In this document: in pieces, positions 16,160-59,754 of the stretch
Layout of the letters: each line of letters starts with the position of its first letter
Position numbering within the stretch: position 1 is the stretch's first letter
NCBI RefSeq assembly: GCF_000442255.1
Contig: NZ_KE557285.1
Coordinates: forward strand, 6,306 to 70,305
Length of the DNA: 64,000 nt
Source: Salipiger mucosus DSM 16094
Lineage (GTDB): Bacteria > Pseudomonadota > Alphaproteobacteria > Rhodobacterales > Rhodobacteraceae
Reading direction: 5' to 3'
The notes under the pieces: generated by a model
The model's database searches: none
Told to the model about the DNA's origin: nothing
The model's input: the letters and a program-made list of their open reading frames with translations, nothing else
Program-made: the position numbers and the translations under genes

Positions 16160-16174
16160 GTTCCCTATATGTTC
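16160..16174. promoter_or_regulatory. Candidate LexA (SOS) box
   Basis: GTTCCCTATATGTTC fits GTTC-N7-GTTC exactly, the LexA target form known in Rhodobacter. It begins 18 nt upstream of the SnoaL-like gene, and its centre supplies the only TATA-like element there (TATAGG on the minus strand). prfC starts 119 nt away on the other side. A single 8-base match can occur by chance in a window of this size. Confidence 0.4.
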
Positions 16175-52783: not shown

Positions 52784-53146
52784 TCAGTCCGCCATCGGCG
52801 CCATGATCTCGACCTCTGCGCCCTCGCGCACCGCGCGATAGAAGCAGGAGCGCCGGTTGGTGTGACAGGCCGGCCCCGCCTGGCGCACGAGCGCCAGCAG
52901 GCAGTCGCGGTCGCAGTCGAGCCTCAGGTCGACCAGCTCCTGCAGGTGCCCGGAACTCTCGCCCTTGACCCAGAAGGCCTGCCGCGAGCGCGACCAGTAG
53001 GTCACGCGGCCCGTCTCCAGCGTGCGGGCAACCGACTCGGCCGACATCCAGGCCATCATCAGCACCTCGCCGGTCTCGGCCTCCTGCGCGATGCAGGGGA
53101 TGAGGCCCCGGTCGTCATAGACCAAGGTCGCGGGATCGAAAGACAT
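52784..53146 (-). CDS. hisI: Phosphoribosyl-AMP cyclohydrolase
   Basis: 120 residues from MSFDPATLVYDDRGL. Third step of histidine synthesis. The magnesium site is DLRLDCDRDCLLALV and the zinc ligands are in that segment and GPACHTNRRSCFY. The single-domain form, without HisE, is usual here. It is convergent with gluQ and divergent from the Fe-S scaffold gene. Confidence 0.95.
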   Translation of the reverse strand: MSFDPATLVYDDRGLIPCIAQEAETGEVLMMAWMSAESVARTLETGRVTYWSRSRQAFWVKGESSGHLQELVDLRLDCDRDCLLALVRQAGPACHTNRRSCFYRAVREGAEVEIMAPMAD

Positions 53147-53213
53147 GCAGAAAACCCTTTTGCAGAACGCCGGTCCGCCCCTATCTATGGGGAGGAACCG
53201 GGAAGGAAAAGCC

Positions 53214-53666
53214 ATGTCGGCCGAACAGGACCTCATCAAGCTCTACTCGTCGCGCATTCTTGCGCTCGCGGCCGATATTCCGCGAACCGAGCGGCTCGAG
53301 GCACCGGATGCCACCGTCAAGAAGCGCTCGCCGCTCTGCGGCTCGACCGTGACCGTCGACATCCGCATGGAGGACGGCAAGGTCGCCGACTACGGGCAGG
53401 ACGTGAAGGCCTGCGCGCTCGGCCAGGCCGCGGCGGCCGTGGTGGGCGGCGCCATCGTGGGCTGCACTCCCGACGAGATTGCCCAGGCCCGGGACGCCCT
53501 GCGCGCCATGCTCAAGCACGACGGCCCCACGCCGCCCGCGCCCTTCGACGGGCTCGAGGTGCTGCGCCCGGCACAGGCCTACAAGAACCGCCACGCCTCG
53601 ATCATGCTCGCGCTCGAGGCCTCGGCCGAGGCCGCCGACCAGGCCCGCGCCGCGCAGAGCGCCTGA
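53214..53666 (+). CDS. IscU/SufU-like iron-sulfur scaffold protein
   Basis: 150 residues. NifU-N/IscU fold: LYSSRILALAADIPRTERL, PLCGSTVTVDI with C42, and DVKACALGQAAAAVVGG with C67. A third Cys (C84) is in GCTPDEIA. The position of the last IscU ligand reads KNRHASIML and lacks Cys, so this is the variant group common in Rhodobacteraceae rather than canonical IscU. GGAAGG precedes the start. Target proteins unknown. Confidence 0.85.
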   Translation: MSAEQDLIKLYSSRILALAADIPRTERLEAPDATVKKRSPLCGSTVTVDIRMEDGKVADYGQDVKACALGQAAAAVVGGAIVGCTPDEIAQARDALRAMLKHDGPTPPAPFDGLEVLRPAQAYKNRHASIMLALEASAEAADQARAAQSA

Positions 53667-53701
53667 GCCTCCCCCGCTCCGAGACACCCGGACAAGAAAA
53701 A

Positions 53702-53730
53702 ACCGCCGCGCTCCGATGGGACGCGGCGGT
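53702..53730. terminator. Bidirectional terminator, stronger on the minus strand
   Basis: ACCGCCGCG-N11-CGCGGCGGT, 9-bp stem. On the minus strand it runs into TTTTTTCTTG, a classical U-tract; on the plus strand CAGTTTG follows. It lies between the Fe-S scaffold gene (plus) and the 39-codon gene (minus). Confidence 0.88.
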
Positions 53731-53865: not shown

Positions 53866-53985
53866 TCAAAGAACGGGCAGGTGCAGCGCCCCAACAAGGA
53901 TGACCACGAGCGCGGTGGCGCCCAGCATGTCCTGAACAAGCGTCGGCTGGGACCGGCGAAGGGCGGTGCGGATCGTCTGGTACAT
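53866..53985 (-). CDS. 39-residue single-pass membrane micro-protein under LexA- and CtrA-type boxes
   Basis: Begins MYQTIRTALRRSQPT and ends HLPVL. A basic amphipathic N terminus (about 15 residues, four Arg) leads into LVQDMLG and one hydrophobic helix (ATALVVILVGAL). GGGAAG lies 7 nt before the ATG. 136 nt beyond the stop a minus-strand terminator ends the transcript, and the AT-rich upstream region holds two abutting 15-bp boxes, so this is a complete small transcription unit. It is downstream of recG on the same strand (141-nt gap). By size, topology and SOS-type box it resembles SidA, the 29-residue SOS-induced division inhibitor of Caulobacter, although the sequences are not obviously similar. 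Function is inferred only. Confidence 0.7.
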   Translation of the reverse strand: MYQTIRTALRRSQPTLVQDMLGATALVVILVGALHLPVL

Positions 53986-54033
53986 GGCGGTCTTCCCTGT
54001 TGTGCGCTTCGTTGCCACTTTGTTCTCATACCA

Positions 54034-54048
54034 TTAACCCTGTGTAAA
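54034..54048 (-). promoter_or_regulatory. CtrA-box-like site upstream of the micro-protein
   Basis: On the minus strand it reads TTTACACAGGGTTAA, matching TTAA-N7-TTAA at 7 of 8 positions. The TTAA ends 48 nt before the start codon. Orientation and distance equal those at sciP and nearly equal those at ctrA in this window. Confidence 0.5.
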
Positions 54049-54063
54049 GAACTTTTTAAGAAC
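54049..54063 (-). promoter_or_regulatory. LexA (SOS) box upstream of the micro-protein
   Basis: GAACTTTTTAAGAAC matches GAAC-N7-GAAC exactly (GTTC-N7-GTTC on the coding strand), the alphaproteobacterial LexA target. It abuts the CtrA-like box with no gap. A third GAAC follows at 54070 with a 6-base spacer. Confidence 0.6.
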
Positions 54064-54126
54064 ATTTGCGAACACAAAGGGACGAGGCGGTCCCATCCTA
54101 TCGGTCGGACGTTCCCCGACGTTCCC

Positions 54127-58491
<4,365 letters not shown>

Positions 58492-59310: not shown

Positions 59311-59325
59311 TTAATGCTTCTTTAC
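59311..59325 (-). promoter_or_regulatory. CtrA-box-like site upstream of ctrA
   Basis: TTAATGCTTCTTTAC on the plus strand; on the coding strand GTAAAGAAGCATTAA, a 7-of-8 match to TTAA-N7-TTAA. The TTAA ends 50 nt before the ctrA start. Confidence 0.6.
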
Positions 59326-59739: not shown

Positions 59740-59754
59740 TTAACAGCGCCTGAA
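59740..59754 (-). promoter_or_regulatory. CtrA-box-like site upstream of sciP
   Basis: TTAACAGCGCCTGAA on the plus strand (coding strand TTCAGGCGCTGTTAA), matching TTAA-N7-TTAA at 7 of 8 positions. The TTAA ends 48 nt before sciP. Confidence 0.5.

Follow-up and report, generated by a model that had tools for sequence, protein, structure and literature searches.

A conserved gene for a predicted membrane micro-protein behind a LexA-type promoter downstream of recG in Rhodobacteraceae, a candidate SOS division inhibitor

The micro-protein locus in Salipiger mucosus

The window, by which we mean the whole stretch of 64,000 nucleotides from Salipiger mucosus DSM 16094 that was analysed, encodes on its minus strand a micro-protein of 39 residues. 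The 141-nt gap between the stop of recG and the ATG of the micro-protein gene holds the micro-protein's own promoter. In the direction of transcription, the features are the following.

54127..56088, minus strand: recG (NCBIfam NF008164), directly upstream of the micro-protein gene and on the same strand
54070..54073, minus strand: third GTTC half-site, preceding the first operator by N6
54049..54063, minus strand: first LexA-type operator, GTTC-TTAAAAA-GTTC (GAAC-N7-GAAC on the plus strand)
54043..54048, minus strand: -35 element TTTACA, also the left half of the CtrA-type box
54034..54037, minus strand: TTAA (within GTTAA), right half of TTTA-N7-TTAA, the left half of which (54048-54045) is part of the -35 element
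54011..54025, minus strand: second LexA-type operator, GAAC-AAAGTGG-CAAC, with one mismatched base in a half-site, covering the probable -10/+1 region
53992..53998, minus strand: Shine-Dalgarno-like AGGGAAG, read off the sequence
53866..53985, minus strand: 39-codon ORF, ATG at 53985, stop TGA ending at 53866, translation MYQTIRTALRRSQPTLVQDMLGATALVVILVGALHLPVL
about 53695..53730, minus strand: terminator-like hairpin with a T run, folding on both strands and starting about 136 nt past the stop

The neighbours recG, ligA and ctrA, which had been named from the letters alone in an earlier model-made annotation (hereafter the original prediction), were confirmed by NCBIfam, with ligA and ctrA further upstream of recG. 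The closeness of the micro-protein gene to ctrA is of no weight as evidence. We compared 129 loci, made up of the 30 best single-sequence matches, 36 loci without the exact promoter pattern described below and 63 fetched for that pattern, TTAA carriers first; recG is directly upstream in 125 of them. At four loci (L015, L133, L153 and L197) the ORF and GTTC-N7-GTTC are kept and recG was not found directly upstream, and there the gene may have been relocated, or a contig break may hide recG. Downstream neighbours are metabolic genes or genes without assignment. In the window, the downstream neighbour is a convergent gene (53145-53666) without NCBIfam or Pfam match.

The U-tract terminator that had been assigned to the micro-protein gene itself turned out to be inexact. 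The strongest T-run hairpin that we found follows some 136 nt past the stop, with energies of -27.3 and -28.5 kcal/mol on the two strands; it is absent from the list of the terminator scan and, since it lies between the micro-protein gene and the convergent gene, may be shared by both. The scan itself gave only a weak hairpin at 53891-53875, inside the end of the ORF, with five pairs and the tail GTTCTTTGAA.

Distribution and coding signature of the family

A single-sequence search with the window protein matched 112 of 198 same-family genomes, which represent 197 genera. Profile A1, built from 28 of the 30 proteins then in hand (L006 and L012 were left out), raised this to 168 genomes. Profile A2 comprises 57 sequences, namely the window protein and 56 of 76 distinct relatives; left out were wrong ORF picks from L234 and L244 and 18 others that were mostly close variants. 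With A2, 172 of the 198 genomes matched, each once except for two matches in one genome (G044), and the family was not detected in the other 26. In a sample of 386 genomes of the class, with up to 19 first-look candidates scored per genome, A2 matched six genomes, all from the same family, and A1 matched seven, one of them from another family. This last match (E 1.6e-4, 20 residues within a 245-aa frame) was gone with A2 and was taken as chance. A protein search of plasmids returned no match to the micro-protein. The genera named for promoter-bearing GTDB contigs are presumably all Rhodobacteraceae, except for three MAGs labelled Alphaproteobacteria and one labelled Rhodobacterales bacterium; the family was assigned from these contig titles.

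Across 124 aligned sequences, pairwise identity at codon positions 1, 2 and 3 is 0.52, 0.67 and 0.37, respectively, and 64% of single-base codon differences are synonymous versus 29% expected. Stops interrupt the +1 frame of 120 of these sequences and the +2 frame of 47, and 99 of the aligned members are exactly 40 aa long. Since pN/pS is saturated across distant loci (mean 0.73 over 2175 pairs, which is uninformative), we used close pairs instead. The dN/dS check that the original prediction had proposed for the short ORF thus gave a pooled pN/pS of 0.24 over 16 overlapping close pairs, chosen by genus name or by similarity, several having a member in common. Codon-position identity and pN/pS together indicate, at the level of sequence comparison, that the ORF is under protein-level constraint, and the 39-codon ORF is almost certainly a real gene. 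A loose Shine-Dalgarno-like motif precedes it in 124 of the 129 loci, versus 67.8 expected from shuffles.

A small protein with one predicted membrane segment

The first 19 or so residues of the micro-protein are amphipathic and partly charged, residues from about 20 to 38 form one uncharged hydrophobic segment, and an LHLP-type motif stands at the end. In the window protein the 18 residues past D19 are all uncharged and the C-terminal half is hydrophobic, so that the 39-residue ORF with a Shine-Dalgarno sequence and one hydrophobic segment was borne out as first described, in its coordinates, in AGGGAAG and in hydropathy. The family consensus (57 sequences) reads MxxxIKxxxxRSxxTLxxDAxGAxALxVMLVxxLHLPxLx, with D19 and G22 invariant. 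Among the 124 sequences, 122 have the D..G motif, and none of these carries K, R, D or E in the 18 residues past the conserved Asp, a segment with a mean Kyte-Doolittle value of 2.09. The N-terminal part of the family is amphipathic (mean moment 0.41) and has a mean net charge near zero (0.18). The best reading of this layout is one membrane helix after a short surface helix, and the micro-protein is very likely to reside in the membrane. Two Paracoccus members (L284, 34 aa; L304, about 32 aa) have a shortened N-terminal part and keep the hydrophobic segment, a hint that the helix is the essential part.

The window ORF has no match in Pfam up to E 1, the SulA family (PF03846) included. Pfam, NCBIfam and PHROGs, queried with the window ORF and the 57 members, gave no described family, the sole match being DUF826 with one member (E 0.0077). 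A SulA search of the Salipiger mucosus genome likewise found no match, with a positive control in Escherichia coli.

Two LexA-type operators in a conserved promoter

GTTC-N7-GTTC has been reported as the alphaproteobacterial LexA motif (PMC3323433) and as that of Caulobacter (PMC12700426). The window has it at 54049-54063, exactly where the original prediction had placed it as GAAC-N7-GAAC. In the window alone the motif is not beyond chance (two matches versus 1.1 expected; 27 of 100 shuffles reach two), and its weight comes only from conservation. Among the best 150 of the 168 A1 matches, 146 have GTTC-N7-GTTC within 170 nt upstream of the ORF; these are 113 with the exact promoter pattern and 33 of the 37 others, the four listed matches without it being L154, L166, L167 and L173. 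The original prediction had beforehand made its case depend on conservation of the ORF and the box in related genomes, and both are found there, the ORF in 172 of 198 genomes and the box at these 146 of 150 listed matches.

The exact pattern is a promoter of 42 bp, GTTC-N7-GTTCTTTAC-N18-GAAC, which occurs once each in 123 of the 198 genomes, versus none for the reversed control. All 113 exact-pattern promoters with a listed ORF match lie 28-92 nt upstream of the ORF. Of the other ten, nine are likewise followed by an ORF of 38-47 aa in this arrangement, and for three of these the profile E exceeds 1e-3. At the tenth (L130, the 130th locus) a 38-aa ORF is readable, and this locus was left out of the 129 because it has no start codon near the profile start. 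Searching GTDB contigs for the promoter first led to the same gene: 78 of 80 listed loci (at least 117 loci in total) have the ORF no more than 380 nt away (E < 1e-3). One of the two exceptions is cut by the contig end (L249) and the other is the Paracoccus locus L304 with its divergent ORF of about 32 aa.

The first operator stands just upstream of the ORF in all 30 best loci, in 32 of the 36 loci without the exact pattern and in all 63 fetched for it (125 of 129), versus 47 of 25800 composition-only shuffles of the upstream regions. As the 63 loci were chosen for the promoter, TTAA carriers first, both the 125 of 129 and the count of TTAA carriers given below (23 of 115) are biased upward. 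A second site, GAAC-N7-[GC]AAC, is present within 170 nt upstream at 107 of the 129 loci, versus 35 of 6450 shuffles that keep base composition, and the distance between the two operators is 38 bp in 96 of the 105 loci where it was measured. In 109 of the 129 loci the first operator is part of GTTC-N6-GTTC-N7-GTTC, that is, GTTC three times at 10- and 11-bp spacing (54073-54049 in the window). The extra N6 half-site makes this more than a plain LexA box.

The Salipiger mucosus genome contains 112 copies of GTTC-N7-GTTC versus 60 of the reversed control, and 100 of the 112 places, examined with a rough gene caller, yielded 39 box-gene pairs within 220 nt. The box stands close before recA, lexA, uvrA, pcrA/uvrD, recQ and an error-prone polymerase gene; uvrA, pcrA, recQ and the polymerase gene are cut by the examined stretch and were named by best match. 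Further boxes stand close before genes for a putative UDG-linked radical SAM repair protein (L038), a PA0069-family radical SAM protein (L104), PdeM (L035) and an MmcB-like protein (L079), which suggests that the SOS regulon may be wider. Many of the 39 pairs involve genes without an evident repair role and are probably chance, so the box alone is weak evidence. LexA was found in 188 of the 198 same-family genomes, and its co-occurrence with the micro-protein is uninformative for that reason. The first operator has an A before its second GTTC, where the genome's own SOS boxes mostly have a T. Given the conserved box and the same box before recA, lexA, uvrA and other repair genes, LexA control of the micro-protein gene is well supported, as originally predicted, and its promoter is with high probability a LexA target.

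In the 30 best loci the order of elements is GTTC-N6-GTTC-N7-GTTC-TTTACA-spacer-TGAGAACAAA-(N5)-AAC. Directly after the first operator, 101 of the 125 loci have TTTAC and 17 a TTG- form, 63 of the loci having been chosen for TTTAC; for the 36 loci that lack the exact pattern, the counts are 9 and 17. The TTTAC or TTG- form at this place marks the -35 element. A scan for sigma-70 promoters found no site at the micro-protein promoter. TATGAG was rejected as -10 because its spacing from TTTACA is just 12 bp. The candidate at 17 bp is GAACAA preceded by TG, in 113 of the 125 loci, which is no standard -10. Should the 17-bp spacing be the correct one, the region from -10 to +1 would be covered by the second operator and the leader would be about 27 nt long. 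The window has no good -10 hexamer at 54028-54019 even though TGAGAACAAA is highly conserved; there, the operator may double as part of the promoter, or the promoter may depend on a different sigma factor.

A CtrA-type half-site in a minority of promoters

CtrA binds TTAA-N7-TTAA, and a further shift was ascribed by the authors of that study to likely half-site binding (PMC9437464). In the window, TTTA-N7-TTAA at 54048-54034 abuts the first LexA-type operator, and two of the four one-mismatch TTAA-N7-TTAA sites of the window (0.26 expected) are at the micro-protein promoter. Across the whole genome TTWA-N7-TTAA showed no enrichment, with 36 sites (palindromic sites counted twice) versus 63 of the reversed pattern, a rough control.

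The TTTA half is the -35 element and is thus no evidence for CtrA. The TTAA half is present in 6 of the 30 best loci and at exactly N7 in 21 of the 123 promoters, versus 14 of 1599 at thirteen other spacer offsets and 0.4-0.8 expected. In the promoter-first set, which may share genera with the set of 123, the count is 21 of 80, versus 0-2 at other offsets. Mapped on a RecG tree, TTAA, which 23 of 115 scored loci carry, takes 20 changes to explain. With shuffled labels the range is 17-23 (mean 21.1), and 25 of 100 shuffles give 20 or fewer. TTAA shows no phylogenetic clustering, so the element comes and goes and is not the mark of one clade.

We rejected the CtrA box as a general promoter element, as its TTAA half is found in 6 of 30 and 21 of 123 promoters only, and kept it as a minority feature because TTAA is enriched at the exact N7 offset. 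As to the box originally predicted, its coordinates are exact and its TTAA half is offset-specific; its TTTA half is the -35 element, and TTAA is missing from most promoters. A minority of genera, that of the window included, may plausibly receive CtrA input, which most lack. For the Salipiger mucosus genome itself, we rate CtrA input as slightly more likely than not.

Relation to known SOS-induced membrane proteins

SidA of Caulobacter crescentus is a LexA-controlled inner-membrane protein of 29 aa that interacts with FtsW (PMC4211646), and lexA-null Caulobacter filaments through sidA (PMC12700426). The micro-protein resembles SidA as a very small, predicted inner-membrane protein with LexA-type control and the GTTC-N7-GTTC motif. 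It differs in its length of about 40 aa, its fixed place after recG, its second operator and its optional CtrA half-site. In the 386-genome class sample A2 had no match outside its own family. The likeness to SidA is one of description, and the micro-protein would work like SidA at most by analogy.

YneA of Bacillus subtilis binds FtsW through a single TM, and the study that describes this proposes that FtsW is commonly targeted in SOS responses (PMC13396833). YneA, with its single TM, and SosA of Staphylococcus aureus are SOS-induced division inhibitors, the role that we propose for the micro-protein. YneA carries an extracellular LysM domain, for which 39 aa leave no room.

In Dinoroseobacter shibae the promoters of lexA and of a Tad pilus gene have predicted LexA and CtrA sites in one promoter (PMC6473078), as has the micro-protein gene. 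Here, in contrast, the CtrA half-site overlaps the -35 element and spacer between two LexA-type operators. The main text of that paper makes no mention of recG. Among the titles and abstract openings of the best-ranked open-access papers (most subscription papers lying outside), we found no description of the micro-protein gene and no SOS division inhibitor of Rhodobacteraceae.

A possible SOS division checkpoint and its alternatives

In undamaged cells, LexA would repress the promoter by occupying both operators, the one adjoining the -35 element and the one over the probable -10/+1 region, as the conserved anatomy suggests. RecA-driven cleavage of LexA after DNA damage is established biology, and here it would free the promoter for production of a single-pass inner-membrane protein of about 40 residues. 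By analogy with SidA, the protein may then serve as a division checkpoint, its membrane helix acting on late divisome proteins (FtsW/FtsI/FtsN) until the damage has been repaired. In a minority of genera, this one included, CtrA would probably add a cell-cycle input through TTTA-N7-TTAA overlapping the -35 element and spacer. An SOS-regulon gene specific to Rhodobacteraceae for a SidA-like membrane division checkpoint is the best explanation we can offer, one that we regard as evenly poised between right and wrong. More tentatively, the protein may be an undescribed checkpoint protein behind a promoter sandwich of about 50 bp, in which two LexA operators, spaced by 38 bp, flank a -35/spacer region that CtrA would also read in a minority of scattered genera. 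The promoter would then integrate damage and cell-cycle state; this fuller version is rather doubtful. The original description as a damage- and cell-cycle-controlled membrane regulator agrees with the LexA-type promoter and the membrane-like segment, while its cell-cycle part would apply to the minority of promoters with possible CtrA input.

The Rhodobacteraceae include model phototrophs, marine roseobacters and the gene transfer agent model. A single-copy, predicted membrane micro-protein with LexA-type control in most of the genera examined is a natural candidate for their SOS division inhibitor. If this is true, SOS membrane peptides of such a kind may have arisen separately in different lineages, and the gene would provide a natural example of a promoter on which LexA and CtrA may converge.

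Instead of stopping division, the micro-protein could be a signalling peptide from SOS to the cell cycle or GTA, modulating a membrane sensor (CckA, DivL) or GTA release and so tying damage to CtrA output. A link between control by LexA and control by CtrA exists in R. capsulatus and, judged from predicted sites, in D. shibae (PMC6473078), and both the occurrence in one family only, among the genomes searched, and the CtrA-type half-site in a subset of promoters would fit. With that half-site in about a fifth of promoters, and with recG and, downstream, metabolic or unassigned genes as neighbours, we consider this reading unlikely.

Comparably unlikely is a LexA-controlled membrane-active peptide that would disturb the membrane potential and slow growth or induce tolerance, with the divisome untouched. 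TisB and DinQ of Escherichia coli are SOS-linked membrane peptides with antisense RNAs, and the micro-protein is like them in its small size, its single hydrophobic, predicted membrane segment and its SOS-type promoter. It is unlike them in that this segment has no charged residue in 122 of 122 members. The probable short leader with a Shine-Dalgarno-like motif (124 of 129 loci) is also unlike a translationally locked type I toxin, and single-copy conservation at one place across most genera is unusual for toxins.

It is quite improbable that a repressor other than LexA reads the TGTTCTCA-like half-sites in both orientations and that the gene lies outside the SOS response. Three GTTC half-sites with inverted GAAC sites do exceed one LexA box, and the A in place of the usual T before the second GTTC would suit another repressor. 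Against this stands the exact GTTC-N7-GTTC spacing at 146 of 150 listed matches, the same as before recA, lexA and uvrA in the Salipiger mucosus genome. LexA itself was found in 188 of 198 genomes, too many for its presence to tell the two readings apart. That the locus downstream of recG encodes no protein and is instead a conserved small RNA or leader under LexA control has next to no probability; in its favour are a strong promoter, conserved in its own right within a short gap, and the T-run hairpin downstream. We rejected this reading on the coding signature of the 124 sequences (conservation by codon position, a bias to synonymous changes, a constant length of 40 aa in 99 of them and stops in the other frames) and on the pooled pN/pS of 0.24.

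Other LexA- and CtrA-type sites in the window

The only other GTTC-N7-GTTC of the window is at 16160-16174 on the plus strand (GTTCCCTATATGTTC, L125), between two divergent genes. One of these looks by eye like RF3, a translation GTPase, and is a possible LexA target. Further one-mismatch CtrA-type sites are at 59311-59325 and 59740-59754 on the plus strand, the first of which is just upstream of ctrA and could be autoregulatory.
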